A stretch of DNA of 64,000 nt from Bacillota bacterium (GTDB taxonomy: Bacteria > Bacillota_A > Clostridia > Lachnospirales > Lachnospiraceae): positions 1 to 64,000 of the forward strand of contig JAEYMU010000042.1 in assembly GCA_023407175.1 (NCBI GenBank). Direction: 5' to 3'. A model generated the notes under the pieces. That model searched no databases, was not told the DNA's origin, and saw only the letters and a program-made list of their open reading frames with translations. Made by a program: the position numbers and the translations under genes. Below, in pieces: positions 8,325 through 35,584 of the stretch. The first letter of the stretch is position 1. Every line of letters begins with the position of its first letter.

Positions 8325-8420
8325 TCCTCCTGACAAAATATAGTTTGCTACAAAAATCGGATACTATTTGTGATCTGATTTTTTTTTGTAAACTATGGTG
8401 GCTATTTTTTATGCCGTCTT

Positions 8421-8484
8421 TTTGTGCTTTTCAATCGTCGATTTGTGCTCTCTGAATTGACGGAGAGAAAATAAATGGTATTAT
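8421..8484 (+). promoter_or_regulatory. promoter of the metabolite operon with LytTR-type direct repeats
   Basis: TTTGTGCT occurs at 8421-8428 and again at 8442-8449, exactly 21 bp apart (two helical turns). Downstream are TTGACG (8457-8462), a 16-nt spacer and TATTAT (8479-8484). LytTR regulators such as AgrA and ComE bind direct repeats with this period just upstream of a promoter. The agr-type regulator encoded at the end of this operon region is the obvious candidate activator. Confidence 0.65.
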
Positions 8485-8538
8485 CTGAATAAAAGATACA
8501 AATATTAGAAAAAAGCTGATCATAAGGAGTGATTTACA

Positions 8539-10740
8539 ATGGATGAAAAGAGAGAGACGCATCAATCCTTTGACAATACGGATAAGCTTATCCGTATTGT
8601 CGTTGCTGCTACTTTTATGGCTGAACCGATCAAGGATACGCTTGACTATTTTATGGATAAACTCAATATCCAGGGTAAGGTGATTTTTGCTTCCTATAAT
8701 CAAGTACTGCAGCAATTACTTGATCCCAAAGGTTTATTTGCATCAAATAGTCAGGGAATCAATATTATTTTAATTCGTTTTGAAGATTGTTACAGGTATG
8801 TAAGTAAGACCCTTGAACTTGAAATTAAGAAAGAGCTGGTTCAAAAAACTGCAAAAGAATTTATTGCCACGATGAAACAGAGAGCAGAAAAGGCTGCCAC
8901 TCCTTATTTTATCTGCCTGTGTCCGTCAAGTCCAAGGGCTGAAATGGAATTAGAGGAGGTTTTTATTGATATCGAGAGGAATTTTGAAGAAGAATTTTCC
9001 GGTTTTAACCATGTAAGCATTATCAAGCAGCAGGAAATAAATAGATTATACCCTGTAGAGGAGTATTATGACGAGCATACAAATCGAATCGCACATATAC
9101 CATATACGGAAGCATACTATACTTCATTGGCCGCAGTGCTGGCAAGGAAAATATATGTACAAGCCGCTGCCCCCTACAAGGTGATTATTGTAGATTGTGA
9201 TAATACCTTATGGAAAGGGGTTTGCGGCGAAAGTGGTTTGACTGGTATTGAAATATCCTATCCTTATGGCAAATTTCAAGATTTTCTTGAACAAAAAAGA
9301 AAGGAAGGAATGTTAATCTGCGTTTGCAGCAAAAATAATGAAGAGGATGTATTCGAGGTATTTGAAAAACATCCGGATATGATTTTAAAAAAGGAATCGA
9401 TTGTTTCCTGGCATTGTAACTGGGAACCAAAGTCACAAAATATAAGGAAGCTGGAGCAAGAATTGGGATTAGCCTTCGACAGTATGATTTTTATCGATGA
9501 CAATCCACTGGAGTGTGCCGAGGTGCATGCAAATTGTCCTGAGATTTTAACATTACAATTTCCAAAGGATGATTATGAGATTCGGCGCTTTATGGATCAT
9601 GTTTGGCCTTTTGAGCAGAGACCTGTTACAAAAGAGGATAAAGCCAGAACTCTGTTTTATCAGCAAAACTCAAAAAGAGAAGAATTGCAGAATAATTCCT
9701 CCAGTTATGAGGGGTTTCTTGCGGGCTTAAATTTAGAGATTAAATTTGAAAAAGCTGCAAAAAACAATATTTCAAGAATATCACAGCTGACACAGCGGAC
9801 CAACCAGTTTAATTTCACAACCATTCGAAGAAGTGAGCGTGAAATTGAAGAAATAGGTCTGTCAGAAGAAGCTGAATGCTTTGTGATAAGTGCGAAGGAC
9901 AGATTTGGAGATTATGGAATGGTAGGCGTAATAATATTCCGGATGCAGCCGGCTGAGACGCTTATAGATACCTTCTGTTTAAGCTGCAGAGCGCTTGGAA
10001 GAAATATTGAATATAAAATGTTGGAATACATATCAGCATATTCCTTAGAACACGGAATAGAGAGCGTTAAAATTCCCTTCATTCAAAGTGAAAGGAATAA
10101 ACCGGCTTTTGATTTTCTAAATCAGGTGATATCCAATTGTATTAAAACAGGAGAAATACACTACAACTATGTATTATCGGCGCGGGAGGGAATTTTGTTA
10201 TCGAAGGCTGCTAAGGAAAGTCAAAGGAGTATAGGAAAGCAGGCAATTACTGATAAGCAGCCAGCCAATGGAGAAATAGTAAGTGTAAAACCAGGCAAGA
10301 CATCTGAATTTCTGTCATATATTGTTACAAATTTGAATAACGTCGATAAGATCGCCAGAGAAATAAATTCACAAAAAACAATTCAAGTGTTAGTTGATCA
10401 TTCGAATGTGCCACCAACTACACCGGTGGAAATCAGACTGGAGGAAATTTGGTCGGAATATTTGAAAATAAATCATATCGGAATAAACAATGACTTTTTT
10501 ACTTTGGGCGGTACCTCCATATTACTGATGCGGATACTTTCCAAAGTAAAAAAGGAATTTCAGGTGGATATATCGGTGAAGCTGGCCTTTGAGGGGGATT
10601 TTACAATTGCAAAGCTTTCCAAAGAAATTGTATGTCAAAAGCTAAAAAATATTGATATTAATCAGTTGAATCAGAAAATGAGAAGCATCGAAGCTTTGTC
10701 GGAGAAGCAAATGCTTCATATGCTCATTCAGGAAAGGTAG
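8539..10740 (+). CDS. FkbH-like HAD-superfamily protein fused to a carrier domain
   Basis: FkbH-type enzymes dephosphorylate 1,3-bisphosphoglycerate and load the glyceryl group onto a carrier protein thiol for polyketide or peptide assembly. Here an N-terminal ~200-residue region is followed by the HAD domain with VDCDNTLWKG (Asp219 and Asp221), CSKNNEEDV and FIDDNPLE motifs. Next comes a GNAT-like C-lobe, and then a phosphopantetheine carrier domain (about residues 630-715) with FFTLGGTS, where Ser660 is the attachment site. The start at 8539 follows AAGGAG. It opens an operon with the GT-condensation fusion 12 nt downstream. Carrying its own carrier in cis makes it a self-contained loading module. 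Confidence 0.85.
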   Translation: MDEKRETHQSFDNTDKLIRIVVAATFMAEPIKDTLDYFMDKLNIQGKVIFASYNQVLQQLLDPKGLFASNSQGINIILIRFEDCYRYVSKTLELEIKKELVQKTAKEFIATMKQRAEKAATPYFICLCPSSPRAEMELEEVFIDIERNFEEEFSGFNHVSIIKQQEINRLYPVEEYYDEHTNRIAHIPYTEAYYTSLAAVLARKIYVQAAAPYKVIIVDCDNTLWKGVCGESGLTGIEISYPYGKFQDFLEQKRKEGMLICVCSKNNEEDVFEVFEKHPDMILKKESIVSWHCNWEPKSQNIRKLEQELGLAFDSMIFIDDNPLECAEVHANCPEILTLQFPKDDYEIRRFMDHVWPFEQRPVTKEDKARTLFYQQNSKREELQNNSSSYEGFLAGLNLEIKFEKAAKNNISRISQLTQRTNQFNFTTIRRSEREIEEIGLSEEAECFVISAKDRFGDYGMVGVIIFRMQPAETLIDTFCLSCRALGRNIEYKMLEYISAYSLEHGIESVKIPFIQSERNKPAFDFLNQVISNCIKTGEIHYNYVLSAREGILLSKAAKESQRSIGKQAITDKQPANGEIVSVKPGKTSEFLSYIVTNLNNVDKIAREINSQKTIQVLVDHSNVPPTTPVEIRLEEIWSEYLKINHIGINNDFFTLGGTSILLMRILSKVKKEFQVDISVKLAFEGDFTIAKLSKEIVCQKLKNIDINQLNQKMRSIEALSEKQMLHMLIQER

Positions 10741-10751
10741 GGGAAATATAG

Positions 10752-13517
10752 ATGGCATGCGTAATATTCGAGACAAATGGTACCGATGGTGATGTTCTGC
10801 CCTTTATTCGTATCGGAAGTCAGCTTGTGAAGCTGGGACACAAGGTAGCAATGGTAACTCATTCCTATTATGAAGCTCTTATTGGGCAGGCAAATATTGA
10901 TTTTATTCCATTAGATACGCCTGCAGATTATGCACAGTTTATTAATGATAATGCCACAATGTGTACTAATCCTCAAGGCTATATAGCCTTTTTAAGGCGA
11001 AATGAGCTGCCGCGTATACTTCCGGCTTACCATAGGATCAAGGATTATTATATACCGAATCAAACCGTTATTATTGGAAAATCACCTGGGATGCTATCTA
11101 CGATCGTTGCCGAAAAATTAAATATTCCAAGGATTGTAGTTTATCTGGCTCCTGCCTTTGTTATGTCGGAAGAATTCTCGGATATGATTTATGATTTGCT
11201 GAAGGAGGATATTGCTGAAATCAGGAATCAGCTTGGAATTCATGGTTCTTATCATAGCGATAATTTTTGGAGAAATGCTCAAAGGTATGTGGGTTTATGG
11301 CCGGAATGGTTTAAGGCGGAGCATTCCTACAGTAATAAAGAGATAGAAAAGATAGGCTTTGTTGTAGATACAAATCAAACAGGCAAGCTGCCGGACGAGG
11401 TTATGGAATTATTAAATGGGGAAGATAAGCCAATTTTAATCAACAGCAGTTCCAGCTGTTTATTTATGAATTCGGATTTTTTTGAATCTACGGTAAAGGC
11501 CTGTGAGGTATTAGGGCAAAAGGCTATTTTTGTTGTTCGATATAAGGATTTTATTCCGGAGAATTTACCAAAGGAAATTCATGTTTTTGCTCAATTGCAA
11601 TTCAGTATATTAATGCCTAAGGTAAAGACTATTATCCATCATGGCGGAATTGGAACCTCTGCACAGGCTCTTGCATCGGGAATACCGCAGCTGGTTTTGG
11701 CAGGTGGAGTTGACCGTCCGGATAATGGTATGTGCCTGAAGAAGCTGGGTGTTGGGGAATATCTGTTACCAACCTATTGGAAATATGAGAATGTGATGGA
11801 GGCATTACAGAGGGTTAGTACTTCCCGGGAAATCAGGGAGAATTGCAAAAAAATGGCCGAAGTGATGAAGAACGAAAAGCCGGTAGAAGCCTTCAATGAG
11901 ATTATTATATCCGTTCTGAAGCATTATCCGCTGGGGATGAAAGAGGATAAATCATATTCTGATGCGGACAGCTCTAATGAAAACCAGCCAAATGCCGGTG
12001 ATATGAAGGAGGAAGCTGCATCTCAAACATATATTTCAAATGAATTTGATAAGCTGACTCAAAATATGTCTCAAAAGGAATTAGAATTGCTTCTGTCACT
12101 TATTGCATGTGCGGCAGAAAATAACGAGTTCGCTATTAAAAAGCAGCCGCGCAAAACAGGCATTAATTCGTTCCCAATTTCCTTTAATCAGGAAGAATTC
12201 TGGCTTTTAAATAAAGCGCAAAAGGATTTTCTGGGATTAAATTTATCTTCTGCATATAAAATATCAGGTCCCTTAAATACGGAGGCCTTAGAAAAAGCTT
12301 TTAATGAAATCATCAAGAGACATGAGAACCTGCATACCATTTTTAAGGAAGCAGAGGGAAGGGTAATGCAGTATATACTTCCGGTTGAGTACATTCCATT
12401 ACCTATGATGGACCTGCAGGAGCTGGAGAATGAAAAACAGGAAATAGAAGTTAAAAGAATTTTGTATCGAAAAATCCATGAACCCTTTGATTTATCAAAC
12501 GGACCGTTAATTCGATTTCTGCTGATGCGGTTGGACAAGGAGGAATACGTTATCTGGTGGGGGCTGCACCATATTCTGGTTGACGGTTGGGGACAAGCAG
12601 TTCTTATGAAGGAAATCAAAGAATTGTACTCCTGGTTTGCCTTCCATAAAATGCATAGTCTTCCGGAAATCGAGATACAATGTGCCGATTATTCTGTTTG
12701 GCAGCGGGATTATTTGAATCCGGACAAATTAAAGGAAAAGGAAATCTATTGGGAAAATAAGCTGGCGGGATACAATCCGAGACTGACCCTGCCATCAGAT
12801 TTTGAAAGACCGGAAATTTTGAACATGAATAATGGTGATGATGAACTGTTTTATATATCAAGGGAACTGGAGGATAAGCTGAAGGGCTCTTCCTGTGAAG
12901 CTGGAACCACCCTGTTTATGTCTTTGCTGTCTGCAATTAATTTACTGATTTATATCTTTACTGAGGAAACTGATATTGCGATTGGATCGCCTATTTCCAG
13001 TCGTAATCGGGAGGAATTAGAGGATTTGATCTGTGATTTTACGAATACCTTGGTCTATCGTACCGTTTTCAGGAAAGAGGATACAATCTATGATGTCATA
13101 AAAAAGGTAAAAGAAACAGCATTGGATTTATACCAGAATCAAGAGCTGCCTTCACAGGATATCAATAGAATATTAGATCAAAAGGTTGATCCGGGTTATT
13201 CTCCGCTATTTCAAATATTCTATGTATTACACGAGATTTTCCCGGGAGACGGTGAACAGTTCCTGGAGGGCTTGAATACAAGGTATTTGAATATCGAGAA
13301 AAAATTATCGCAGTTTGATGTATCCTTTTATCTGTTTATTAATAAGCAGGACGGACTGTATGGAAAATTAGAGTATAACAAGGATTTATACCTGCATGAA
13401 ACAATTTTAAAATTCATTCATTTTTTTAAAGAGATATTAAAAAATATGGTAGAAAATCCGGATTTAAAGATTTCTGAACTGAAATCGAAAATAGAATTAA
13501 CAATTTCCACAATATAG
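10752..13517 (+). CDS. glycosyltransferase (GT1-like) fused to an NRPS condensation domain
   Basis: Residues 1-395 form a GT-B glycosyltransferase of the macrolide/flavonoid GT1 type: glycine-containing N-terminal loop, donor-site HHGGIGTSAQAL (from residue 296) and a GGVDRPDNG region. After a ~75-residue hydrophilic linker, residues ~475-900 are a condensation domain with HHILVDG (606-612) as the HHxxxDG active site and late motifs including DFTNTLV. C domains form amide or ester bonds between a carrier-bound acyl group and an amine or alcohol. No adenylation domain is present in this protein or its neighbours. The likely acyl donor is the carrier of the preceding gene. I know of no common family with this domain order. 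Confidence 0.85.
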   Translation: MACVIFETNGTDGDVLPFIRIGSQLVKLGHKVAMVTHSYYEALIGQANIDFIPLDTPADYAQFINDNATMCTNPQGYIAFLRRNELPRILPAYHRIKDYYIPNQTVIIGKSPGMLSTIVAEKLNIPRIVVYLAPAFVMSEEFSDMIYDLLKEDIAEIRNQLGIHGSYHSDNFWRNAQRYVGLWPEWFKAEHSYSNKEIEKIGFVVDTNQTGKLPDEVMELLNGEDKPILINSSSSCLFMNSDFFESTVKACEVLGQKAIFVVRYKDFIPENLPKEIHVFAQLQFSILMPKVKTIIHHGGIGTSAQALASGIPQLVLAGGVDRPDNGMCLKKLGVGEYLLPTYWKYENVMEALQRVSTSREIRENCKKMAEVMKNEKPVEAFNEIIISVLKHYPLGMKEDKSYSDADSSNENQPNAGDMKEEAASQTYISNEFDKLTQNMSQKELELLLSLIACAAENNEFAIKKQPRKTGINSFPISFNQEEFWLLNKAQKDFLGLNLSSAYKISGPLNTEALEKAFNEIIKRHENLHTIFKEAEGRVMQYILPVEYIPLPMMDLQELENEKQEIEVKRILYRKIHEPFDLSNGPLIRFLLMRLDKEEYVIWWGLHHILVDGWGQAVLMKEIKELYSWFAFHKMHSLPEIEIQCADYSVWQRDYLNPDKLKEKEIYWENKLAGYNPRLTLPSDFERPEILNMNNGDDELFYISRELEDKLKGSSCEAGTTLFMSLLSAINLLIYIFTEETDIAIGSPISSRNREELEDLICDFTNTLVYRTVFRKEDTIYDVIKKVKETALDLYQNQELPSQDINRILDQKVDPGYSPLFQIFYVLHEIFPGDGEQFLEGLNTRYLNIEKKLSQFDVSFYLFINKQDGLYGKLEYNKDLYLHETILKFIHFFKEILKNMVENPDLKISELKSKIELTISTI

Positions 13518-13557
13518 TTGATACCATCAGAAAAATATTTTGAATAAGGAGATTGCT

Positions 13558-14604
13558 ATGGAGCCCGTAATACAACTAAACCATATTAGTAAAGAATATA
13601 AAATATTGAATCGAAGGGAGGGATTAAAGGGCAGCTTTCAGGATCTTTTTTCGAGAAATTATAGAGTGATTAAGGCTGTAAATGATATCTCCATGTCAAT
13701 TAACAAGGGAGAAATGGTAGGGTATCTGGGACCCAATGGCGCCGGAAAATCCACGACGATTAAAATGATGACGGGTGTACTGGAGCCATCCTCAGGAGAA
13801 ATTTCAATTGCCGGAAGAGTTCCCTATAAGAATCGGACAAAGAATGCCCAGGAGATTGGCGTGGTATTCGGACAACGCTCCCAGCTATGGTGGTCCTTGC
13901 CGGTTATTGAGTCATTTAAAATCTTAAGGGATATTTATCAAGTGGATACAAAAGCCTATAAGGATATGCTGGAATATTATGATTCCTTGATTGATGTCCG
14001 GGAGCTTTATGGTAAACCGGTAAGACAATTATCCTTGGGGCAGAGAACACTTTGCGATATTTTAGCAGCCTTTTTACATAATCCACAAGTGGTATTTTTG
14101 GATGAGCCGACGATCGGGCTGGATGTAACGATGAAAAGCAAAATACGTGAATTGATTAAGCACTTAAACCAAGATAAAAATATGACGGTTATTTTAACAA
14201 CACATGATATGGGAGATGTAGATGCCCTTTGCAAGCGAATTATAATTATTGATAAAGGGACTGCCCTCTATGATAACCACATTGAAAATCTGAGACATTA
14301 TTTTGGAGCTTATCGTACCTTGAAGGTCATATTGGGCAAAAAAGCTTCTGATTATAAGAAGGAAGCCTCGGAGATGACTGCGGATGAATTGGAAGCGCAG
14401 ATCAGAAAGCATTTTATCGCTGCAAAAGCCCTGTCGGTTTCAGCTAATGAGGAGTGGCTGGATGTATTGATTAATGAAGATGAGGTTTCAATGATCAATG
14501 TATTAAATTATATTCAGGAAATTGTTAATATCCAGGATTTGAAGCTGGAAGAGATATCAACGGAGAGTATCATAAAGAAAATATATGAAGGGGGAATTCA
14601 ATAA
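13558..14604 (+). CDS. ABC transporter ATP-binding protein (drug/viologen exporter type)
   Basis: A single ATPase domain of 348 residues: Walker A GPNGAGKST near residue 60, a Q-loop region with GQRSQLWW, signature LSLGQ, Walker B VVFLDEPT, then a H-loop (TTHD) and a C-terminal extension. The GQRSQLWW sequence is characteristic of the subfamily paired with two ABC-2 (DUF990-type) permeases. Start at 13558 is chosen because AAGGAG lies 6 nt upstream; the upstream TTG in the same frame is unlikely. It powers the two permeases that follow and presumably exports the product of this operon. Confidence 0.9.
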   Translation: MEPVIQLNHISKEYKILNRREGLKGSFQDLFSRNYRVIKAVNDISMSINKGEMVGYLGPNGAGKSTTIKMMTGVLEPSSGEISIAGRVPYKNRTKNAQEIGVVFGQRSQLWWSLPVIESFKILRDIYQVDTKAYKDMLEYYDSLIDVRELYGKPVRQLSLGQRTLCDILAAFLHNPQVVFLDEPTIGLDVTMKSKIRELIKHLNQDKNMTVILTTHDMGDVDALCKRIIIIDKGTALYDNHIENLRHYFGAYRTLKVILGKKASDYKKEASEMTADELEAQIRKHFIAAKALSVSANEEWLDVLINEDEVSMINVLNYIQEIVNIQDLKLEEISTESIIKKIYEGGIQ

Positions 14605-14607
14605 ATT

Positions 14608-15423
14608 ATGAAGTCAACCTTTTCCGTATTAAAGTATAGGTCTCTGGCTCGTGCCGGCATTATGAAAACGCTGCATTTTCGAATGAGCTATATTGTCACC
14701 ATAATTAGTAATCTGGCCTACTTAATGGTCATCTATTATCTATGGAAGGCTATTTATGCATCAAGTGCAACGGAGTCAGTGAATGGAATGACCTTTAAAG
14801 ACACCTTCATTTATCTGGTTCTGGCTACGGCGATTTTTAATGTGTATGAGGTCGCTATGATCTGGTGGACAGGAGATGATATTCGAAATGGCAAAATTGT
14901 TTTGGATTTAATCAAGCCTATGATTTATCAGGTTTATACCTTTTTCAATTATTCAGGTAATTATATTATTATGTTCTTTTTTACCTTTGCTCCGACCTTC
15001 TTACTGGTGTACTTTTTATCGGGGGGAGCGATTGTAGTCGGAATTAATTTAATTCTTTTCCTGATAAGCCTTATGTTAGGTTTGATTATTAATTTCTGTG
15101 TCGATTTTTTTGTAACAACGATTTGCTTATATACTCAGTCAACCTGGGGAGTCAGTGTTATGAAGGAGGTTATTGTACTGTTTGTTTCGGGAGCTACAGT
15201 TCCGCTTGCTTTTTTCCCTGGGGGCCTGAAAACCTTTGTGGAATATCTTCCGTTTAAATCAATTTATAATACCCCACTGATGTTTTTAGTAAATGAATCC
15301 TTGAACCTGAAGGATTATTTTGAACTGTTACTGGAGCAGGCGTTTTGGGTGTTCGTACTTATTTTAATAAGCAATGCGTTTTGGAAATGTTCCATAAGAA
15401 AAATAACAGTGAATGGAGGATGA
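14608..15423 (+). CDS. ABC-2 type permease subunit 1
   Basis: A 271-residue integral membrane protein with about six hydrophobic helices, starting 3 nt after the ATPase stop. The conserved DDIRNGKIVLDLIKP segment between helices 2 and 3 is typical of this ABC-2 subfamily. With the next gene it would form a heterodimeric channel. Export of the locus product, or self-protection against it, is the simplest role; no substrate can be read from sequence. Confidence 0.85.
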   Translation: MKSTFSVLKYRSLARAGIMKTLHFRMSYIVTIISNLAYLMVIYYLWKAIYASSATESVNGMTFKDTFIYLVLATAIFNVYEVAMIWWTGDDIRNGKIVLDLIKPMIYQVYTFFNYSGNYIIMFFFTFAPTFLLVYFLSGGAIVVGINLILFLISLMLGLIINFCVDFFVTTICLYTQSTWGVSVMKEVIVLFVSGATVPLAFFPGGLKTFVEYLPFKSIYNTPLMFLVNESLNLKDYFELLLEQAFWVFVLILISNAFWKCSIRKITVNGG

Positions 15424-15427
15424 CGAG

Positions 15428-16234
15428 ATGAATGGAAAAAGACTTTCCTATTATGCTCATATCTATTTCAAAATTCAGATACAGGATATCAAAAGCAAAA
15501 TGAGCTATCGTGCTGATTTTATCATATCTGTAATCGGTATGCTGCTAACGAATTTGTCCGGCTTCCTGGCGTTCTGGATAACCTTTCAGAATTTCCCTTC
15601 TGTAATGGGCTGGAATTATAATCAAATACTTTTTATGTATGGGTTTTCACTATTGGCATTAACACCGGTTCAAATATTTTTTGATAATAATTGGAATTTG
15701 AGAAATTACGTATATACTGGAGATTTCATTAAATATTGTTTCCGTCCCATTAATCTGTTCTTTTATTATATATCGGAGGTATTTGATATTAAGGGCGTTT
15801 CTCAATTTATTTTTGGCGGAGTTACGCTGGCCTATGCCTGGAATAAACTTGGATTAGAAATATCCTTTCTGATCATTCTCGAATTAATTGCCGCACTTTT
15901 AACGGCCGCACTCTTTATGATCGCCATTATGAATATTGCGGCGGCGACTGGCTTTTGGATTATAAATAATGCGGGTTATCTGATGTCGTTCATATTTAAA
16001 TTAAAGGATTATGCAAAGTATCCGGTAAGTATCTATAATCCGGTCATCCGTTTTATATTTACATTTTTAATACCGATTGCATTTATCTCTTATTATCCCA
16101 GTCTTATATTTTTAAGACCGAATCAGATACCGATACTTACCTATTTATCACCTGCACTGAGTATTGTCTTTTTCTATATAAGCTATAAGATATGGATGAA
16201 GGGAGCAATGTCTTATTCGGGTACAGGGTCTTAA
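15428..16234 (+). CDS. ABC-2 type permease subunit 2
   Basis: A 268-residue integral membrane protein with about six helices, paralogous in layout to the preceding gene: TGDFIKYCFRPIN corresponds to the R-G/D-L-I-P segment of its partner. The start at 15428 follows GGAGGATGACGAG; the upstream reading of the frame overlaps the preceding stop. ATPase plus two different permeases is the usual three-gene composition of the viologen/daunorubicin-like exporters. Confidence 0.85.
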   Translation: MNGKRLSYYAHIYFKIQIQDIKSKMSYRADFIISVIGMLLTNLSGFLAFWITFQNFPSVMGWNYNQILFMYGFSLLALTPVQIFFDNNWNLRNYVYTGDFIKYCFRPINLFFYYISEVFDIKGVSQFIFGGVTLAYAWNKLGLEISFLIILELIAALLTAALFMIAIMNIAAATGFWIINNAGYLMSFIFKLKDYAKYPVSIYNPVIRFIFTFLIPIAFISYYPSLIFLRPNQIPILTYLSPALSIVFFYISYKIWMKGAMSYSGTGS

Positions 16235-16278
16235 AAGAAGTTCTAAAAATTTAATTATAATAAGGGGGAGTATAAAAA

Positions 16279-16704
16279 ATGAAAATTTATTTTGCGGGCT
16301 CAATAAGAGCCGGTCGGGAAGACGTGGATACTTATCATAGGATAATTAATCAATTAAAACAATATGGGGAGGTTCTTACAGAACATGTAGGAGATTATAG
16401 TCTTTCAATCGAAGGGCAGAATCAATTACCGGATACCTATATTCATGACAGGGATTTGGAATGGCTGCAAAGCTCAGATGTGATAGTAGCAGAGGTAACC
16501 GTGCCAAGCCTGGGTGTCGGCTATGAGCTTGCAACTGCAGTCAAGGAAAATATACCTGTAATAGCATTATTCAGAAATGCGGAGGGAAGGCAGCTATCGG
16601 CAATGATCCGCGGCTCAAAAGGAATTGATACAATTGATTATAATGACATAGAAACGGTAATTCCCAGGCTTAATGGCCTGCTGAACGAGTTGAAGACTAA
16701 CTAA
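16279..16704 (+). CDS. DNPH1/MilB-like nucleoside 5'-monophosphate N-glycosidase
   Basis: A 141-residue protein of the nucleoside 2-deoxyribosyltransferase superfamily that closely follows mammalian DNPH1 (Rcl): the substrate loop FAGSIRAGRED at the start, then HDRDLEWLQ with the conserved Asp (residue 59), AEVTVPSLGVGYE with the catalytic Glu (residue 83), and AMIRG. Known members cut the N-glycosidic bond of (deoxy)nucleotides: DNPH1 acts on 5-hydroxymethyl-dUMP; BlsM and MilB act on CMP or hydroxymethyl-CMP in nucleoside antibiotic pathways. The next gene is a thymidylate-synthase-family enzyme, the same pairing as MilA/MilB. Which base and sugar are used is unknown. Confidence 0.88.
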   Translation: MKIYFAGSIRAGREDVDTYHRIINQLKQYGEVLTEHVGDYSLSIEGQNQLPDTYIHDRDLEWLQSSDVIVAEVTVPSLGVGYELATAVKENIPVIALFRNAEGRQLSAMIRGSKGIDTIDYNDIETVIPRLNGLLNELKTN

Positions 16705-16766
16705 TAACAGTACATTGTCATGCCGATGAAGGGAAAGCCATGACAGAAGAGAAGGGAGCGTATCAT

Positions 16767-17855
16767 ATGTATAGAAATATAACCTATGCTTTTGTTGATA
16801 TGTTAAATAGTATTTCAAAAAGAGGATCGTATATTTCAACCAGGGGAAGTGAACAAATAGAAATTTTATCCCAGTTAATCCAGATAAAAAATCCTATGGA
16901 AAGAGTTATCGTTGTACCAAACCGGAAAAATAATATTTTTGCTTTGATTGCAGAAACCATATGGGTTTTAGGAGGAAGAGACGATCTGGCTTATTTATCC
17001 CATTACCTTCCCAGAGCAATTGATTTTTCGGATAACGGGAAAACCTGGAGGGCTGCTTATGGTCCGCGCTTGAGAAATTTTAATGGAGTGGATCAGTTTA
17101 AAGAAATAGTACGAATAATAAATGAAGACAAAAACACAAAGCGGGCTGTTATGTCAATTTTCAATCCGCAAAAGGATTATGTAGAAACCAAGGATGTTCC
17201 CTGCAATAATTGGCTGCAATTTATGGTGCGTAACGGACAGCTTCATTTAAATGTTACCGTAAGAGCAAATGATGCAGTATGGGGCTTTGGAGGCATCAAT
17301 AGCTTCGAATGGTCCGTTCTGCAGGAAATGATGGCATTTTGGACGGGCACTGAAGTAGGAAACTTGTCCTGGTTTGTAGGAACAATTCATGTATATGAAC
17401 GGCATTATGAAACAGCACAGAAAATTATTGACAGCTTTCCGTATAAAACGCTATACGAATTCGGTATTCAGCGACCAAAATTCAGTACATCATTCTCTGA
17501 TTTTGATAAAGAGTTAAAGAAATGGTTTTGTATTGAGGAGAAAATGCGGATACAAGCGGATGCTGATCTTTATTCTGAGATACAACAAATTCAGGACAGC
17601 TTTTTAAGAAATTCCTTAGAAATGCTACATATTTATAATCAATATTTGAGGGGTTGCCCTGATACAAAGCTAGCAGAGCTAGTGAACCAGCTTCCCACCA
17701 ATGATTTTAAAATAGCAGCGATTGAATATTTTTCCCGTACGATTAATTTAATGGAACAAATGAACCTTAGTGATAAGGAAAGAGAGTTTTTTGAGTTTTA
17801 TAATAATTGTATCATGACCCAAACAGATAAATCACATGTTGCGTTGATTTCATAG
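16767..17855 (+). CDS. thymidylate-synthase-family nucleotide hydroxymethylase
   Basis: A 362-residue TS-fold enzyme, ~100 residues longer than bacterial ThyA. It keeps Cys146 in PCNNWLQF (nucleophile), Arg166 (phosphate) and Asp169, which happen to fall at E. coli numbers. However, the His after Cys is Asn147, the QRS triad is replaced (VRAN), and the N177 position is shifted within WGFGGINS. Loss of these makes ordinary dTMP synthesis unlikely. Relatives in nucleoside antibiotic loci (MilA type) add hydroxymethyl to CMP using methylene-tetrahydrofolate. It sits just after the DNPH1-like gene, with an ATG following GAAGGGAG. Base and sugar specificity cannot be called. Confidence 0.82.
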   Translation: MYRNITYAFVDMLNSISKRGSYISTRGSEQIEILSQLIQIKNPMERVIVVPNRKNNIFALIAETIWVLGGRDDLAYLSHYLPRAIDFSDNGKTWRAAYGPRLRNFNGVDQFKEIVRIINEDKNTKRAVMSIFNPQKDYVETKDVPCNNWLQFMVRNGQLHLNVTVRANDAVWGFGGINSFEWSVLQEMMAFWTGTEVGNLSWFVGTIHVYERHYETAQKIIDSFPYKTLYEFGIQRPKFSTSFSDFDKELKKWFCIEEKMRIQADADLYSEIQQIQDSFLRNSLEMLHIYNQYLRGCPDTKLAELVNQLPTNDFKIAAIEYFSRTINLMEQMNLSDKEREFFEFYNNCIMTQTDKSHVALIS

Positions 17856-17863
17856 GTATCTTT

Positions 17864-18691
17864 ATGAAGGATTACACAAAAATATTACCGCCTCATATGG
17901 AAAAAAGAATTGGTGAGAATGATTTATTCTTAGAGATATTTGATGGTGAAAGTGCTTTCGAGGGAACAAATCAAAAACCTCCGCTGTTATTCGTACATGG
18001 AGCATATACCGGAAGCTGGATGTGGAGCAGGTACATTCCGCATTTTGTTAGAGAGGGCTGGAAATGCTATGTGATGAATTTAAGAAGCCATTATCGAAGC
18101 AGGGTGATGGATATGACTAAGATATCCTTTGAAGATTATTTGGAGGATATTGGGACGGTTATTACAGAGTGTGAGGAAACTCCGATTATCATAGGTTTCA
18201 GTCTCGGTGGAATATTGTGCCAAAAAATGGCTGAAACAGTAAAAGTTTCGGGACTGGTATTGATTGATTCCTGTATTAGCAAGGAAGTGAATGAAGTATC
18301 TCCCTATGAAGTACTGCTTGAAGATACACTTGGAATCGTAGAGCCTGCCCCTGTTCGTCAGGAAGGTTCCAGCATTGATGAAACAGAGGATGACATTGCA
18401 TTTCAAAAAAAATACCTATCCATGGAATCAGCAAAGGTGTTTCGTATTTGTGCCTGCTGGATCAAAGGAATCCCGGGAGTTTCTATAGACAGTAGACGGA
18501 TTATGTGTCAGGCCCTGGTCATTAAAGCCTTAAACAGTGAGGAAGAGGATAGACGCGGGAGAGCAGAAAGCGAACATCTTAATGCGGAGTATATTGGATT
18601 TTGGAATACAACGCACACTGGATTACTTGTAGGGCAAAAATATATGGCTGTAGTAGATAGAATTCTGGAATGGTTAGGAAAATATTATTAG
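17864..18691 (+). CDS. alpha/beta hydrolase
   Basis: A 275-residue alpha/beta hydrolase: oxyanion region FVHGAYTGSW (residues 43-52), nucleophile elbow GFSLGG with Ser113, an Asp-containing strand later and the final His near FWNTTHTG. It starts 8 nt after the hydroxymethylase stop and is the last gene before a terminator, so it belongs to the operon. A plausible role is a stand-alone thioesterase releasing or editing the carrier-bound intermediate, or an esterase acting on the product; sequence alone cannot decide. Confidence 0.8.
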   Translation: MKDYTKILPPHMEKRIGENDLFLEIFDGESAFEGTNQKPPLLFVHGAYTGSWMWSRYIPHFVREGWKCYVMNLRSHYRSRVMDMTKISFEDYLEDIGTVITECEETPIIIGFSLGGILCQKMAETVKVSGLVLIDSCISKEVNEVSPYEVLLEDTLGIVEPAPVRQEGSSIDETEDDIAFQKKYLSMESAKVFRICACWIKGIPGVSIDSRRIMCQALVIKALNSEEEDRRGRAESEHLNAEYIGFWNTTHTGLLVGQKYMAVVDRILEWLGKYY

Positions 18692-18727
18692 GCAAGTCAA
18701 AGTTATGAAAGGAAATATAGAATACCA

Positions 18728-18772
18728 ACGTCTCATAGCTAGCGGTAATGAAATAGCTATGGGACGTTTTTT
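18728..18772 (+). terminator. rho-independent terminator ending the metabolite operon
   Basis: A 14-bp stem (18728-18741 with 18754-18767, one G-U pair) followed by six or seven T residues. It separates the biosynthetic genes from the agr-type regulatory genes, so the two are probably separate transcription units. Confidence 0.85.
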
Positions 18773-18889
18773 GTGTCAAAAACCAAAATTTTAATATTTT
18801 AGGATATAATTGTAAAATAACTTCCCATATATTCCGATAAATATAGAAACAACAATACAAATGCTGTTTTTTATGAGGGGGGAGGATAT

Positions 18890-19609
18890 GTGATTTATAT
18901 TGCAATTTGTGATGATGAAAAATATTATAGAGAACAAATGAAGGACTTGGTTACGAGATATTTTGTCGAACATCAAATGGAATATCATATTGAGCTGTTT
19001 TCTTCAGGAAAAGAGTTTTGTGCAAGGGGCTTGGATATTGCAAAATATGATATTGTTTTTTTAGATATTAGCATGAATGAAGTAAATGGAATTGAAGCTG
19101 CATACAGAATAAGGGAGTACAGAAAAGATACCTATATCGTATTTGTTACCGGTTTCTTCAATTATGCACTGGAGGGATATAAGGTAGATGCAATTCGCTA
19201 CATCATGAAGGATACATTAAAGGCTTCTCTTAACGAATGCCTGGATGCAATTTTTAAGAAAACGGAAGCCCGGATGGATCAAATGGAATTTAAATTTATT
19301 GAGGCGAAAAAGCATGTTTTGCTGGATAAAATTATTTATATAGAAAGCCAAAAGCATAAGTTGATATTTCATATACTTGAAGCAGGTTTAAAGGAATATA
19401 GCGTTTATAATAAATTAGATAACATTGAGCTGCAATTAAAAGAATACAGATTTTTCCGTATCCATAAAAGTTATCTTGTTAATATGAAGTACATTGAAAA
19501 AGTAGGCAGTTATAAGGTGACTTTAACCTATGGACAGGAATTATCAATCCCCAGATTGAGATATCAGGCTGTAAAGGAAGCGTTTGTTCTGTACAAAGGA
19601 GAACTATAA
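18890..19609 (+). CDS. AgrA-like LytTR response regulator
   Basis: A 239-residue regulator: receiver domain (about 1-120) with the acidic pair CDDE and phospho-acceptor Asp59 in VFLDIS, then a LytTR DNA-binding domain (about 140-235) with YIESQKHKL and HKSYLVN signatures. The start codon is GTG after GGGGGAGGATAT. It overlaps the kinase start by one base, so the two are translated together. TATAAT at 18805-18810 is the only clear promoter element upstream. The probable targets are the 21-bp repeats in front of the FkbH gene and, weaker, agrB. Confidence 0.88.
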   Translation: MIYIAICDDEKYYREQMKDLVTRYFVEHQMEYHIELFSSGKEFCARGLDIAKYDIVFLDISMNEVNGIEAAYRIREYRKDTYIVFVTGFFNYALEGYKVDAIRYIMKDTLKASLNECLDAIFKKTEARMDQMEFKFIEAKKHVLLDKIIYIESQKHKLIFHILEAGLKEYSVYNKLDNIELQLKEYRFFRIHKSYLVNMKYIEKVGSYKVTLTYGQELSIPRLRYQAVKEAFVLYKGEL

Positions 19610-20922
19610 TGGCAGAAATTGCTCAAAGTTTGATTATTATATTTTTGGAGTCAGTATGTTGCAAATTTTTTCTGGATACCTTTATGCAAAAAAAAGATTA
19701 TTTAAATAAATGGATGAAAAAAATAATGCTGGCTGTCATGGTACTTAGTTTTACTATTATAGCAATCTTGGTTCGGAATTTTGCTTTGAAGAGTTGCCTG
19801 ATCGTACTGATAATTATGATATTTGTTCAAATTTATTATAATGCCACGATTTTTCAAAGCTTAGTTTTGTCGGCAATCTATTACGGGATTTTGCTTGGAA
19901 TAGACTATTTGTCCATTGTAATAATTAAAAACCTATTACCTGAGAGGTATTATGAAATCTTATATGGCAGTTCGGTATCAGCAACGATTGTAATTTTGTT
20001 TTGTAAGATGGTTTTATTCCTGACAGTATTAATGATAAGGCAGAAATGGAAGGAAAAGGATGGTTTGGACCTGATCTCAAATATGGAGTGGATATATCTT
20101 TCTTATTTTCCCTTATTTACGATTGCTTCCATGGCAGTTATGCTGTTTGGCTTTGATTTTAGTAATGAAAGCTTGAACATTAATATACTGCTTATCCTTG
20201 CATTTGGACTTGTTATCATGAACTTTATCGTATTTTATGTGATTCATGATATTGTAAACAGAGAAAAAATTATTCGAAATAGTAGGTTAATGCAGGAGAG
20301 AACGAAAAACCAGATGAATATTTACTGGAATATGCATCACACTTATGAGCAGCAAAGGAAAAGAACTCACGATTATAAAAACCAATTAAATTGCATTCAA
20401 GGAATGCTGGCGAATGGAAGAATAGAAGAAACACAGGAATATATTGCTGATCTGACAGGCAGTTTAATAAAAGACCTGGATACAATACATACGAATCATG
20501 CAGTAGCAGATGCTGTGCTTAATCAAAAATATAGATATGCCCAAAGTAAAGAGATTACGATGATACTGGTAGTAAATGATTTATCGGAATTAATAATAAA
20601 TGAGGAAAATTTAGTAACAGTGCTTTCCAATATATTAGATAATGCAATTGAAGCTTGTGAAAAAGTAGAAGGGGATAGAGTTATTAAATTTAAAATGATA
20701 ATTGAGAAGGGGCAGCTTCTCATATCTGTTCAAAATCCATTGAAGAAACCGTTAGATATTGTAGCTAATAAAATAGTTACCAGTAAGGCAGATAAAATAG
20801 AACATGGAATAGGGCTGCTTAATATTAAAGCAGTGGTGGATAAGTATGATGGTATATTTGCAATTAATAATAAGGAAGGATGGTTTTGTCTTTCCGTTTT
20901 AATTCCATTGAAACAGTGCTAG
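19609..20922 (+). CDS. AgrC-like sensor histidine kinase
   Basis: A 437-residue membrane kinase: six or so N-terminal helices (to about residue 215), then a cytoplasmic coiled segment with the phospho-acceptor region HDYKNQLNCIQG, and a GHKL ATPase domain with N-box NILDNAIEAC and G-box HGIGLLNIK. This is the AgrC layout, in which the membrane domain senses a cyclic peptide. It is followed by a terminator and then agrBD, so signal synthesis and sensing genes sit together. Confidence 0.88.
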   Translation: MAEIAQSLIIIFLESVCCKFFLDTFMQKKDYLNKWMKKIMLAVMVLSFTIIAILVRNFALKSCLIVLIIMIFVQIYYNATIFQSLVLSAIYYGILLGIDYLSIVIIKNLLPERYYEILYGSSVSATIVILFCKMVLFLTVLMIRQKWKEKDGLDLISNMEWIYLSYFPLFTIASMAVMLFGFDFSNESLNINILLILAFGLVIMNFIVFYVIHDIVNREKIIRNSRLMQERTKNQMNIYWNMHHTYEQQRKRTHDYKNQLNCIQGMLANGRIEETQEYIADLTGSLIKDLDTIHTNHAVADAVLNQKYRYAQSKEITMILVVNDLSELIINEENLVTVLSNILDNAIEACEKVEGDRVIKFKMIIEKGQLLISVQNPLKKPLDIVANKIVTSKADKIEHGIGLLNIKAVVDKYDGIFAINNKEGWFCLSVLIPLKQC

Positions 20923-20961
20923 CTATTTCATCCGATTATGCATCTGAAATAGCCTTTTTTT
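20922..20961 (+). terminator. terminator after the agrC-like gene
   Basis: GCTATTTCA (20922-20930) pairs with TGAAATAGC (20945-20953), followed by seven T residues. It isolates agrBD as its own unit. Confidence 0.8.
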
Positions 20962-21020
20962 GCTTTCAAGGAGCCGATTAATGCAATGAAAATTGACATA
21001 TTGGAAATATAAGGTATGAT
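20958..21020 (+). promoter_or_regulatory. agrBD promoter with possible degenerate LytTR boxes
   Basis: TTGACA (20993-20998), 16-nt spacer, TATGAT (21015-21020). Upstream, TTTTGC (20958-20963) and TAATGC (20979-20984) are 21 bp apart, and the second TGC is 33 nt before the -10, the same distance as in the FkbH promoter. The promoter is clear. The boxes match only partly and overlap the terminator T-run, so autoregulation is a suggestion. Confidence 0.5.
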
Positions 21021-21064
21021 TTGATTGTGTATTTCAGTTTTCAAGAAAGAGGAAATAAATAATT

Positions 21065-21643
21065 ATGATGCAAACAGTAGCCAGGAAAGTTACATACTGC
21101 CTGATACAGAATGGAAGGATTGAACAGGAAAATGAGGAAAAATATATCTATGGAGTAGAGGTTGTAATTGAGAAATTAATTACCTATGGGGTTTTGTTAA
21201 TACTTGCCCTGTCCTTGAAAATATTAGTTCCAAGTGTGTTGTTTGTCCTTTTTTTCGCTTTGTTACGAGGATATACCGGAGGCTTTCATGCACGCACCTA
21301 TTTGGGGTGCTTCATTAGTACAATCCTCATGTATTTGTGCTGCTGCCAGGTAATTGCTCCCTTCTTAATAAAAGAAAAGCTGTATATAATCCCTGGCATT
21401 ATAATATCAAGTATTTTTATTTTGCTATTTGCCCCCATAAATAACCCTGACTTAAATCTGAGTGCGAAAGAAATAAAAAGATGCAAAATAGGGACAAAGC
21501 TTGTCCTTATGCTTGAAGTGATATCGATTGCTATGGGTATTTATAGTGGAATAAGTACAGTATATATTGTATTTCCCTTTTTAGGGATTGTGATGTGTGC
21601 TGTTTTATTAATAGTAGCTAAAATAATTCAACGGGAGGTATAA
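21065..21643 (+). CDS. agrB: AgrB-like autoinducer peptide processing protease
   Basis: AgrB is a membrane cysteine protease that cuts the C-terminal tail off AgrD and closes the thiolactone ring. The 192-residue protein has the conserved RGYTGGFHA motif with catalytic His75 and Cys82 (YLGC), and about five hydrophobic helices after a short cytoplasmic N-terminus. Its substrate gene follows 3 nt later. Length matches the family. Confidence 0.92.
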   Translation: MMQTVARKVTYCLIQNGRIEQENEEKYIYGVEVVIEKLITYGVLLILALSLKILVPSVLFVLFFALLRGYTGGFHARTYLGCFISTILMYLCCCQVIAPFLIKEKLYIIPGIIISSIFILLFAPINNPDLNLSAKEIKRCKIGTKLVLMLEVISIAMGIYSGISTVYIVFPFLGIVMCAVLLIVAKIIQREV

Positions 21644-21646
21644 AAA

Positions 21647-21787
21647 ATGAAAAACAATTTAGTAAAACAAACCATTCTAAGGGCTATTGGAAAAGCCGCA
21701 GAGTTAGAGGTAAAGAAATTAACTTCCGATTGGCAAGGAGTGTGTATCGGTTTTTTACATCAACCGAGGCGCCCGCTGAAAAAGTAA
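21647..21787 (+). CDS. agrD: AgrD-like cyclic lactone autoinducer precursor peptide
   Basis: A 46-residue peptide with a GGGAGG-type ribosome binding site. It has an amphipathic N-terminal half, then the core CIGFL starting at Cys33, then a tail HQPRRPLKK. Cys, four residues, and a Pro-containing charged tail is the AgrD pattern: AgrB cleaves after the fifth ring residue and links its carboxyl to the Cys thiol. The predicted signal is a five-residue thiolactone Cys-Ile-Gly-Phe-Leu with a short N-terminal extension (up to SDWQGV). Position directly after agrB supports this strongly. Confidence 0.9.
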   Translation: MKNNLVKQTILRAIGKAAELEVKKLTSDWQGVCIGFLHQPRRPLKK

Positions 21788-21809
21788 TACATATTTGAGG
21801 GAAGTAGTG

Positions 21810-21837
21810 AACCAGCACTTGGAGACAAGTGCTGGTT
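21810..21837. terminator. hairpin between agrD and the TetR gene
   Basis: AACCAGCACTT (21810-21820), loop GGAGAC, AAGTGCTGGTT (21827-21837): an 11-bp perfect stem between convergent genes. The T-run is short, but the place suits a shared terminator. Confidence 0.65.
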
Positions 21838-21842
21838 TGGCA

Positions 21843-22436
21843 CTATCTGGAATGTCCTGATTGCCAATCAAAGGCTGCACTGCCATTTATAGATAATTGC
21901 AGGATTAACCGGGCAACCTCCTCAATGGGCTTTTTGCCTCCATCGGCCAGCCATTTTTGAATTACTCCAAGACAGCCGTTTGCAAAAAAGAGGAATATAT
22001 ACTCGTCATCCTCAGAGCGTAACATGGCCTTGTCATCATAGGAGTAAAAATGCTGCCGCCCGATCAGATTTGTGACTTCCTTCTGAAAATTAATATCGCC
22101 GTTGGAATTCAGCAAAAGATCAAATAATACGGAATTTTCCTGAACAAACTCCAGAATCTTTATTATCATTTCAACGGGGGCATCCTTTTCCTTCCGAAAG
22201 TTATAAGGCGCCAGGTACTGGTTTATGCCGTCAATCAATTCATTTTCAATTTGCTTGAGCAGATCGTACTGATCTGTATAATGGGCATAAAAGGTCGCAC
22301 GGTTAATATCTGCGTCCTCACATATTTCTTTAATAGAAATCTTTGAGATTGGCTTTTGCTTTAAAATTTTCACAAAGCTTTCCCTGATAACCATCTTGGT
22401 GTATTTAACTCGTCTGTCTGTTTTCTTTGTGTTCAT
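21843..22436 (-). CDS. TetR/AcrR-family regulator
   Basis: A 197-residue regulator: N-terminal helix-turn-helix (about residues 25-60) with ISIKEICEDADINRATFYAHY, the family signature, and an all-helical ligand-binding C-terminal half. It is divergent from the MacB/FtsX-type ABC pair, whose promoter region lies in the shared 326-nt gap, so repression of that transporter is likely. The effector is unknown. Confidence 0.85.
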   Translation of the reverse strand: MNTKKTDRRVKYTKMVIRESFVKILKQKPISKISIKEICEDADINRATFYAHYTDQYDLLKQIENELIDGINQYLAPYNFRKEKDAPVEMIIKILEFVQENSVLFDLLLNSNGDINFQKEVTNLIGRQHFYSYDDKAMLRSEDDEYIFLFFANGCLGVIQKWLADGGKKPIEEVARLILQLSINGSAAFDWQSGHSR

Positions 22437-23464: not shown

Positions 23465-23468
23465 TAGA

Positions 23469-26513: not shown

Positions 26514-26538
26514 CAGATAATAAAATAAAAAATACCTC

Positions 26539-26581: not shown

Positions 26582-26607
26582 CTAATTTGATAAGAGGAGG
26601 TGTACAG

Positions 26608-27042: not shown

Positions 27043-27049
27043 GTAATAA

Positions 27050-35554: not shown

Positions 35555-35584
35555 AAGAACAAATCTTATAATGCTCTAAACGTA

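Follow-up and report, generated by a model that had tools for sequence, protein, structure and literature searches.

A quorum-linked operon in a Lachnospiraceae bacterium with a predicted route to a glycosylated, glycerate-acylated 5-hydroxymethyluracil conjugate

Human DNPH1 is a sanitiser of the nucleotide pool, and the mildiomycin pathway includes arginine and glucuronate steps. The agr systems of Staphylococcus and Clostridia consist of AgrB, an AgrD peptide, a GHKL kinase and a LytTR regulator. In the accessible text of the source articles, base formation for mildiomycin in Streptomyces rimofaciens is described as the action of MilA, a TS-family CMP 5-hydroxymethylase, followed by that of MilB, a base-freeing N-glycosidase (PMC5175136, PMC4081090). 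The bacimethrin cluster of a Clostridium botulinum strain, as far as the available excerpts go, combines nucleotide hydroxymethylation, base release and a transporter with a methyltransferase, ThiD2 and a thiaminase, its product being a cytosine-derived thiamin antivitamin (PMC12345177). The articles on FkbH-loaded NRPS modules (vioprolide, cystomanamide, corramycin and suomilide), likewise available in part, report that FkbH replaces the A domain and that C domains use the glyceryl thioester, with an ester bond in vioprolide (PMC8949500, PMC10099666, PMC13122637).

A locus with likenesses to each of these systems was identified in the window, i.e. the whole 64,000-nucleotide stretch of contig JAEYMU010000042.1 analysed here. 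Eight genes, arranged as a tight operon (8539-18691) with spacings of 3-44 bp or a short overlap, encode in order an FkbH-carrier protein, a glycosyltransferase-condensation (GT-C) fusion, a three-gene ABC exporter, a DNPH1-type N-hydrolase, a TS-family hydroxymethylase and an alpha/beta hydrolase, with a complete agr system (AgrD being recognized by eye) located 3' of the operon at 18890-21787 (Table 1). Every gene named in an earlier note on this DNA was found as an intact reading frame in its place, with domain and structure matches in agreement, and this gene content supports the small-molecule pathway with a GT and a glyceryl-type unit that the note had proposed. The window also contains genes for a spore photoproduct lyase and a germination protease, indicative of a spore-forming organism.

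Table 1. Features of the metabolite operon and adjoining agr system (window positions)
Feature	Position	Strand	Evidence
Operon promoter	8418..8488	+	-35 TTGACG (8457), -10 TATTAT (ends 8484), tandem TTTGTGCT repeats
FkbH-like glyceryl transferase/phosphatase + carrier domain, 733 aa	8539..10740	+	TIGR01686 305 bits, PF00550, LGGTS phosphopantetheine motif
Glycosyltransferase (GT28/GT1 type, EryCIII-like)-condensation fusion, 921 aa	10752..13517	+	PF00668 276 bits, PF06722, PF03033, HHILVDG
DrrA-like ABC exporter ATPase; start codon TTG, alternatively ATG (13558)	13540..14604	+	PF00005; TIGR01188 202 bits, under the model's own cut-off
ABC-2 permease 1	14608..15423	+	PF06182 E 3.5e-19
ABC-2 permease 2	15413..16234	+	PF06182 E 9.6e-39
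Predicted DNPH1-type (hydroxymethyl)pyrimidine-nucleotide N-hydrolase	16279..16704	+	Nuc_deoxyrib_tr; Rcl/DNPH1 structures E 7.6e-36; YFAGSIR motif
TS-family 5-hydroxymethylase (K134/A176/N187/C155), predicted UMP 5-hydroxymethylase	16740..17855	+	PF00303; MilA E 9.8e-32; residue logic; tree
Alpha/beta hydrolase (putative release, editing or self-protection)	17864..18691	+	PF00561 E 1.7e-12
Biosynthetic operon terminator	18727..18768	+	-21.7 kcal/mol, z -5.15, then T run
AgrA-like LytTR response regulator	18890..19609	+	PF04397, PF00072
AgrC-like GHKL sensor kinase	19609..20922	+	PF14501 E 4.3e-27
agrBD promoter	20954..21024	+	-35 TTGACA (20993), -10 TATGAT (ends 21020), repeat layout as in operon promoter
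AgrB peptide-processing protease	21065..21643	+	PF04647 E 1.7e-32
AgrD-like signal precursor, 46 aa	21647..21787	+	Translation; CIGFL as putative thiolactone ring, followed by an HQPRRP tail

The locus differs from its described counterparts in several respects. Compared with mildiomycin, it contains the FkbH-carrier and GT-C in place of the arginine and glucuronate steps. The methyltransferase, ThiD2 and thiaminase described in the available bacimethrin text are all absent from the operon. Whereas the FkbH modules in the accessible literature belong to multimodular assembly lines, the window encodes a single carrier and a single GT-fused C domain. No AMP-binding or ketosynthase domain was detected among 31 window proteins scanned against Pfam, a set that covers the locus except AgrD and leaves many genes at 23448-30762 and 37675-58919 outside it, and the operon does not qualify as a canonical NRPS/PKS cluster, for which an adenylation or ketosynthase domain is required. 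The earlier note had pointed out this absence, but the lack of an A domain is not unusual in itself: FkbH is known as a substitute for A domains (PMC8949500, accessible text) and an A-PCP occupies that place in the sister loci L001 and L002 (see below). No cluster with this combination of genes was found in the portion of the open-licence literature available, in agreement with what the note had claimed.

The FkbH region contains the HAD-type DxDxT motif (VDCDNT) and its carrier the LGGTS serine, and glyceryl loading is predicted from sequence. The C domain carries an intact HHxxxDG motif, compared with HH...DA rather than DG in L001 and L002, and an ester-forming C domain adjoining FkbH is known from the accessible literature. 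We consider it probable, though far from assured, that the locus represents an agr-controlled operon for an exported, glycosylated and glycerate-acylated 5-hydroxymethyluracil conjugate. In the proposed pathway, the TS-family enzyme would hydroxymethylate UMP (or dUMP) with methylene-tetrahydrofolate, after which the DNPH1-type hydrolase would cleave the N-glycosidic bond to yield free 5-hydroxymethyluracil. The GT domain would attach a sugar to this base, at its 5-hydroxymethyl group or a ring nitrogen, while FkbH would draw on 1,3-bisphosphoglycerate to load its own carrier with a glyceryl unit, which the C domain would then transfer, as an ester or amide, to the sugar or base. With a hexose as the sugar, the predicted conjugate would have the formula C14H20N2O11 ([M+H]+ about 393.11). 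The alpha/beta hydrolase may release, edit or inactivate the product, which the ABC transporter would export. AgrB and AgrD would generate a cyclic peptide sensed by AgrC and AgrA, and AgrA would activate both agrBD and the operon. The gene content and layout were directly observed; the substrates, the order of the GT, acylation and hydrolase steps and the product structure are predicted.

Any antibiotic activity would likewise be conjectural, and the product may instead act as a signal or public good, e.g. an exported uracil glycoside for surface decoration. Any secreted product would be compatible with quorum control and a dedicated exporter, and the acyl part varies among related loci (A-PCP, ATP-grasp and FkbH variants), yet the TS is rare and patchy across the genomes sampled, a distribution more usual for specialised metabolites, and we regard this alternative as unlikely.

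The identity of the base was examined through residue signatures, which can be read directly from the TS. This protein belongs to the TS fold (PF00303) with a catalytic cysteine (C155), and its closest solved structure is that of MilA (best true TS, E 1.7e-14). Its start is probably the second methionine, at 16767, since the database copy (P0032, 362 aa) is shorter by nine residues at its N terminus. The ribose residues of MilA (K133 and A176) are matched by K134 and A176, whereas the cytosine-specific aspartate (D186 of MilA) is replaced by N187. In the accessible text, the MilA authors tie asparagine at this position to uracil (PMC5175136). The window TS was therefore not classed as a CMP enzyme; having ribonucleotide-type K and A together with uracil-type N, it and its clade are predicted to be UMP 5-hydroxymethylases, so that the base is probably 5-hydroxymethyluracil. 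Asparagine was found at the D186 position in 119 of 120 homologues (the best 120 of 499), and the full K/A/N/C set in 74 of these 120, the window's own copy included. In a tree computed without P0109 and P0140, the former of which has odd residues and is counted among the 120, K/A sequences were monophyletic (76/76 rows, support 0.964); these rows include the window protein twice (WIN and P0032) and probably the L094 protein twice (P0150, likewise on a 139,639-bp contig).

The N-hydrolase shares the fold and the SIR and PSLGVGYE motifs of Rcl/DNPH1, named as a 5-hydroxymethyl-dUMP N-hydrolase, its nearest solved structures. The human enzyme serves pool sanitation, whereas the window gene adjoins a hydroxymethylase gene in an operon. 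R10 of the YFAGSIR motif, also present in five aligned relatives, corresponds to the arginine that reads the 5-hydroxymethyl group in MilB (matched by eye, MilB itself being unaligned; accessible text). Tyr4, of the deoxy type, occupies the place of Phe17 of MilB, and in the available MilB text an F17Y substitution shifted the enzyme to deoxy substrates. This tyrosine conflicts with the ribonucleotide-type residues of the TS over the sugar of the intermediate; the freed base is identical in either case.

The pairing of DNPH1 and TS genes recurs elsewhere, namely in sister loci of a Lachnospiraceae MAG and of Rhizobium rhizogenes, together with a related C domain, A-PCP and GT(s), and, with ATP-grasp ligases, on an Apilactobacillus plasmid (the one examined of 13 A. 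kunkeei plasmid records) and in a gammaproteobacterium. In the sister clusters L001 and L002, with A-PCP and GT, identities to the window are 64-67% for DNPH1, 63-65% for TS and 42-49% for the C domain. DNPH1 adjoins TS in all five K/A loci examined (window, L001, L002, L081 and L094) versus none of five R/S loci (Fisher p 0.008), the latter, sampled without two further rhizobial plasmid matches (H16 and H17), all being of the rhizobial family and the lineages consequently not independent. The base module of TS and DNPH1-type hydrolase is well supported, and the hydroxymethyl-pyrimidine unit that the earlier note had suggested can be narrowed to one based probably on uracil.

The base could alternatively be 5-hydroxymethylcytosine, in which case the product would be a cytosine nucleoside or thiamin antivitamin of the mildiomycin or bacimethrin kind. 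MilA is the closest structure to the window TS, MilA/MilB base formation is a precedent described in the available text, and the sister TS of L107, a locus in a genome that matches Acetivibrio clariflavus, shows the cytosine-type D at the N/D column when aligned pairwise by HMMER with T4 dCMP hydroxymethylase and with a true TS; these alignments were preferred to a mixed one that gave I. Against this stand the uracil-type N of the window TS and nearly all of its listed homologues, the proximity of the N-hydrolase to DNPH1, with no MilB structure among its 13 structure matches at E<=0.001, and the operon's lack of any methyltransferase or ThiD kinase domain, the markers of the bacimethrin cluster in the accessible text. 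A cytosine base is accordingly considered distinctly unlikely.

The operon and agrBD were shown to share a promoter. The regions 8418-8488 and 20954-21024 are identical at 48 of 71 positions in ungapped comparison, in which the -35 and -10 boxes line up, as does a tandem repeat of 21 bp; the TTTGTGCT repeats of the operon promoter, read by eye, lie at 8421-8428 and 8442-8449. The score of this pair was reached by none of 1785 and none of 1054 other window tiles, and the claim of a shared promoter rests on this ungapped test over all tiles, preferred to gapped alignment. In gapped form, the agrB promoter scored 51 with the operon promoter versus 47 with the region upstream of 59370, and a hand-made IUPAC pattern allowing up to three mismatches recovered one of the two promoters. 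The agrBD promoter was the best sigma-70-like site across 8270-22800 (11/12). The locus shares its agr components with described systems and differs in its order (A-C, then B-D), in the separate promoter for B-D and in its presumed target, the metabolite operon; a CIGFL thiolactone is the putative AgrD-like ring.

The quorum link, which the earlier note had drawn from adjacency, thereby exceeds mere neighbourhood, and co-regulation of operon and agrBD is a well-supported prediction. That the agr system is a neighbour exerting no control over the operon seems very unlikely. In favour of this reading, no AgrB match turned up in L001, L002, L081, L094 or L107, whose sole agr-like match was a kinase domain of low significance (E 9e-6) in a Cache kinase of 609 aa in L107, direct AgrA binding is a prediction, and the gapped promoter comparison was equalled or beaten in 2 of 500 shuffles. 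Against it, the 71-bp shared promoter is unique in the window, with its tandem repeats at equal distance from the -35 box in both copies.

The earlier note had made its proposal dependent on linkage of these genes in relatives, which was recovered in part, agr being the exception. Homologues of the FkbH-carrier (P0155; best 120 of 6611 examined), GT-C (P0005) and TS (P0036) each lie on a metagenome contig of 39,805 bp, their linkage following from equal size rather than coordinates. In L107, the FkbH-carrier and GT-C are adjacent (56% identity each) and accompanied by a different TS-family enzyme, a beta-lactamase-type hydrolase, a MATE exporter and a SLOG/LOG-like protein, for which a base-freeing role is a guess, given its PF03641 score of 24.9 bits (cut-off 27). 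This genome was found by a separate search, outside the 80 listed loci of a contig pattern scan that returned at least 80; both scan patterns lie inside the GT domain, so absence from the scan is no proof, and the listed matches ranked below L002 were mostly plain GTs or a GT beside NRPS. In L004, the FkbH-carrier adjoins a GT-C-PCP-TE protein, and no TS or N-hydrolase match was detected in 22.5 kb, indicating that the FkbH-carrier/GT-C pair is not bound to nucleobases everywhere. The MATE exporters of L001 and L107 share 61% identity. In a control set of 206 further genomes (57 of 58 plus 149 of 150, only the 10 best candidates being scored for many of the second set), one genome (G364) encodes a MATE at 56%, located amid ordinary genes and with no match to the remaining cluster queries over the 19.5 kb examined, while the six remaining matches are at 33-37%; the G364 match weakens the MATE link, which is suggestive only.

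It is highly improbable that the locus comprises two unrelated neighbours, a glycolipid- or surface-glycan-decorating module (FkbH, GT-C and ABC) and a TS/DNPH1 pair that sanitises the nucleotide pool, as L004 and the role of human DNPH1 might suggest, for a single strong promoter and a single terminator frame the genes as one operon, FkbH-carrier and GT-C recur next to a TS-family enzyme in L107, there with non-orthologous partners, and the TS/DNPH1 pair occurs with C, carrier and GT in L001 and L002.

The directly observed recurrence of these modules suggests, tentatively and at somewhat less than an even chance, that the conjugate operon belongs to a modular, largely undescribed natural-product class built on free 5-hydroxymethyluracil with interchangeable acyl units. 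The base would derive from DNPH1 and a new TS subfamily, the UMP 5-hydroxymethylases, which would add a fourth to the pairings of ribo or deoxy with uracil or cytosine residues. The acyl units, with or without a sugar across the class, would be glycerate via FkbH-carrier in the window, amino acids via A-PCP and C in Lachnospiraceae and Rhizobium, and amino acids via ATP-grasp ligases in honeybee Apilactobacillus and a gammaproteobacterium. The window product would then parallel base J in the form of an acylated free base, its production turned on by agr quorum sensing.

The locus seems to yield a small exported compound that unites a modified uracil base with a sugar and a three-carbon acid, a make-up for which no described counterpart was found in the open-licence literature, as far as its available text extends. 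If the proposed pathway is correct, TS, a DNA-precursor enzyme family, would have been recruited, in more than one phylum, to supply secreted metabolites with 5-hydroxymethyluracil derived from a ribonucleotide. The K/A/N signature with an adjoining DNPH1 gene would offer a simple search handle for the class, which mining centred on A domains and KS may miss, and each pathway step would be open to assay with single purified enzymes. The shared promoter would allow a direct test of whether quorum sensing governs a small-molecule operon in a spore former.

Pfam and NCBIfam searches of the eight-gene operon identified an FkbH domain with a carrier in gene 1, a GT28/EryCIII-like glycosyltransferase with a Condensation (C) domain in gene 2 (the GT-C fusion), an exporter represented by a DrrA-like ABC ATPase and two PF06182 permeases, and Nuc_deoxyrib_tr, thymidylate-synthase (TS) family and alpha/beta hydrolase proteins encoded by the last three genes. 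Shuffle-based folding revealed a strong terminator after the alpha/beta hydrolase gene (z -5.15) and a strong stem after agrD (z -5.67), whereas the terminator after the GHKL kinase gene was weak (z -1.44, with equal folding in 17 of 200 shuffles). The GC content of the locus in 2-kb steps was 35-39%, compared with 41-50% across most of the window rightward, and was equally low in two steps to its left; the low GC content of the locus would fit transfer.

Features of the locus and its surroundings in the window
Feature	Coordinates	Strand	Remarks
Eight-gene operon	8539-18691	+	intergenic gaps of 3 to 44 bp or slight overlaps
LytTR regulator and GHKL kinase	18890-20922		downstream of operon; Pfam
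AgrB	21065-21643		
AgrD-like peptide, 46 aa	21647-21787		
88-aa frame	6852-7118	-	possible remnant, resembling by eye the C-terminus of an ABC-2 permease
TetR_C_8-type regulator, ABC ATPase and 1021-aa membrane protein	21843-26513		directly past agrD; regulator faces the other two; membrane protein of MacB kind, by eye
Row of lysozyme-type endolysin, 225-aa protein with sigma-70 region 4 and phage-type holin	34613-36786		

The TS-family protein matched MilA, the CMP 5-hydroxymethylase of mildiomycin, with an E-value of 9.8e-32, compared with 1.7e-14 for the best true TS. It carries K134, A176 and N187 at the places of MilA K133, A176 and D186, with C155 as the catalytic cysteine (K/A/N/C). According to the available text of PMC5175136, Lys133 and Ala176 of MilA are tied to ribonucleotides (MilA, BcmA) and Arg and Ser to deoxynucleotides, while at the Asp186 position Asp is linked to cytosine and Asn to uracil; in that text, the combination of ribo and uracil residues is absent from the five proteins compared. 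Among the best 120 of 499 TS homologues, a set that includes the window's own protein, 74 were K/A/N/C, 45 were R/S/N/C and one was odd. A tree built from 124 sequences placed the 76 K/A rows, which include the window twice, in a single clade (support 0.964). The K/A proteins combining ribo and uracil residues appear to represent a separate TS subfamily of predicted UMP 5-hydroxymethylases.

The window N-hydrolase was shown to be nearest to Rcl/DNPH1. It and five aligned relatives retain, with motifs matched by eye, the Arg of the MilB motif, which reads the 5-hydroxymethyl group (PMC4081090, available text). At the place of MilB Phe17 the window protein has a Tyr, and the same source text reports that F17Y shifts the preference of MilB to deoxy substrates; this Tyr conflicts with the ribo signature of the window TS. 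Whether the substrate is of ribo or deoxy type, the base freed would be 5-hydroxymethyluracil. A 491-aa fusion of DNPH1 and a K/A/N TS was observed in a Desulfobacteraceae MAG (P0048), which supports a joint action of the two enzymes.

To collect sister loci, GTDB contigs were scanned with profiles, and 11 window proteins served as tblastn queries. The DNPH1-TS base module was accompanied by a close C domain in at least two loci, L001 (Lachnospiraceae MAG Lab288P1bin41) and L002 (Rhizobium rhizogenes NBRC 13257), with identities to the window of 64-67% (DNPH1), 63-65% (TS) and 42-49% (C domain). Both encode an adenylation-carrier protein (A-PCP) instead of the FkbH-carrier, adjoined by separate glycosyltransferases and a MATE or MFS transporter. 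This swap fits the documented replacement of A domains by FkbH, as in vioprolide, where an ester-forming C domain stands alongside (PMC8949500, available text), with further literature on corramycin and suomilide.

DNPH1 and TS also occur with an MFS transporter and ATP-grasp ligases, three of the latter on an Apilactobacillus kunkeei plasmid (L081; one assigned by its ddl annotation and a match to L094) and two in a genome from the order of Pseudoalteromonas (L094). On the A. kunkeei 'pPKS' plasmid, the set (11905-18243 of L081) lies alongside PKS genes and may provide bee symbionts with another metabolite pathway, a second one. In the available main text of a honeybee study (PMC9648514), a polyketide synthase cluster and ATP-grasp proteins are named for this plasmid, and 'thymidylate' and 'DNPH' are absent.

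DNPH1 adjoins TS in all five K/A loci opened (window included), and was not found in the 16-25 kb examined around each of five R/S loci, all rhizobial. Near R/S/N-type TS genes on rhizobial plasmids, nucleotide-kinase genes (L083, L084), NTP pyrophosphohydrolase genes (L082, L083), uracil-DNA glycosylase and caspase genes (L082) and a TIR gene (L084) were observed; these TS genes perhaps function in defence or in modifying DNA bases, and not in the production of metabolites.

In samples of genomes, the window TS query detected one of 397 in the family of L001 (E 1e-40), namely L001's own, and one of 285 in the order of locus L022 (E 1e-50). At E 1e-50, it detected none of 341 and none of 378 in the classes of loci L014 and L006, respectively, both samples being without a positive genome. 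The L002 TS query detected three of 297 in L002's family, i.e. its own and two of R/S type.

The FkbH-carrier and GT-C proteins recur, at 56% identity each, in L107, a locus of a genome matching Acetivibrio clariflavus, where they follow genes for a MATE exporter, a different TS-family protein, a DUF84 NTPase, a SLOG/LOG-like protein and a beta-lactamase-type hydrolase. The L107 TS shares only 23% identity with that of the window and, by pairwise alignment, carries R, S and D, as does T4 dCMP hydroxymethylase. LOG proteins are nucleotide phosphoribohydrolases; the SLOG protein matched PF18306 (E 2e-34) and fell below the cut-off of the LOG-type model PF03641 (24.9 versus 27 bits), and our guess is that it frees the base. 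If so, the same roles, i.e. pyrimidine-nucleotide hydroxymethylation, base release, glycosylation, acylation, hydrolysis and export, would be filled by partly different families around one FkbH-carrier/GT-C pair. Such an exchange of partner families is, in our view, the best argument that the window operon represents one pathway.

Among metagenome homologues, the longest contig listed is 39,805 bp for P0005 (GT-C), P0036 (TS) and P0155 (FkbH-carrier) alike; for P0035 (TS) as well as P0157 (FkbH-carrier), it is 31,363 bp. In an Eremiobacterota MAG (L004, 7938-14943), an FkbH-carrier gene is followed by genes for a GT-C-PCP-thioesterase and an HTTM protein. No TS or N-hydrolase match was found in this locus, indicating that the FkbH/GT-C partnership extends beyond nucleobase chemistry.

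A link to quorum sensing is suggested by the promoters. The regions preceding the operon (8418-8488) and agrB (20954-21024) are identical at 48 of 71 ungapped positions (score 25), while the top score was 16 for the agrB region against 1054 other 240-bp window tiles and 14 for the operon promoter region against 1785 tiles; a gapped comparison was less striking, with two of 500 shuffled pairs scoring as high. Both promoters are sigma-70-like with a 16-bp spacer (TTGACG/TATTAT for the operon, TTGACA/TATGAT for agrB), the latter being the top such site within 8270-22800. By eye, a TGC-containing repeat, TTTGTGCT, occurs upstream of the operon -35 at 8421 and 8442, and TGC occurs upstream of the agrB -35 at 20961 and 20982, in both cases 21 bp apart. 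LytTR regulators typically use tandem boxes about two turns apart. The simplest reading of these sequences is that the AgrA-like protein would drive both promoters.

In the proposed pathway, UMP (or dUMP) would be converted to its 5-hydroxymethyl form, N-glycosidic cleavage would release free 5-hydroxymethyluracil, and this base would then be glycosylated. Glycerate loaded by FkbH would be transferred to the glycosylated base by the C domain, and the final product would be exported.

The earlier note had proposed a new system, and a cluster of such content was not found in the part of the open-access literature that was consulted. Membership in the mildiomycin or bacimethrin families was rejected, because the window TS lacks the cytosine residue of the former and the locus lacks the methyltransferase/kinase genes of the latter. 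The locus resembles MilA/MilB base formation coupled to FkbH-loaded, NRPS-type acylation, and, as a guess, its product may act as an antimetabolite.
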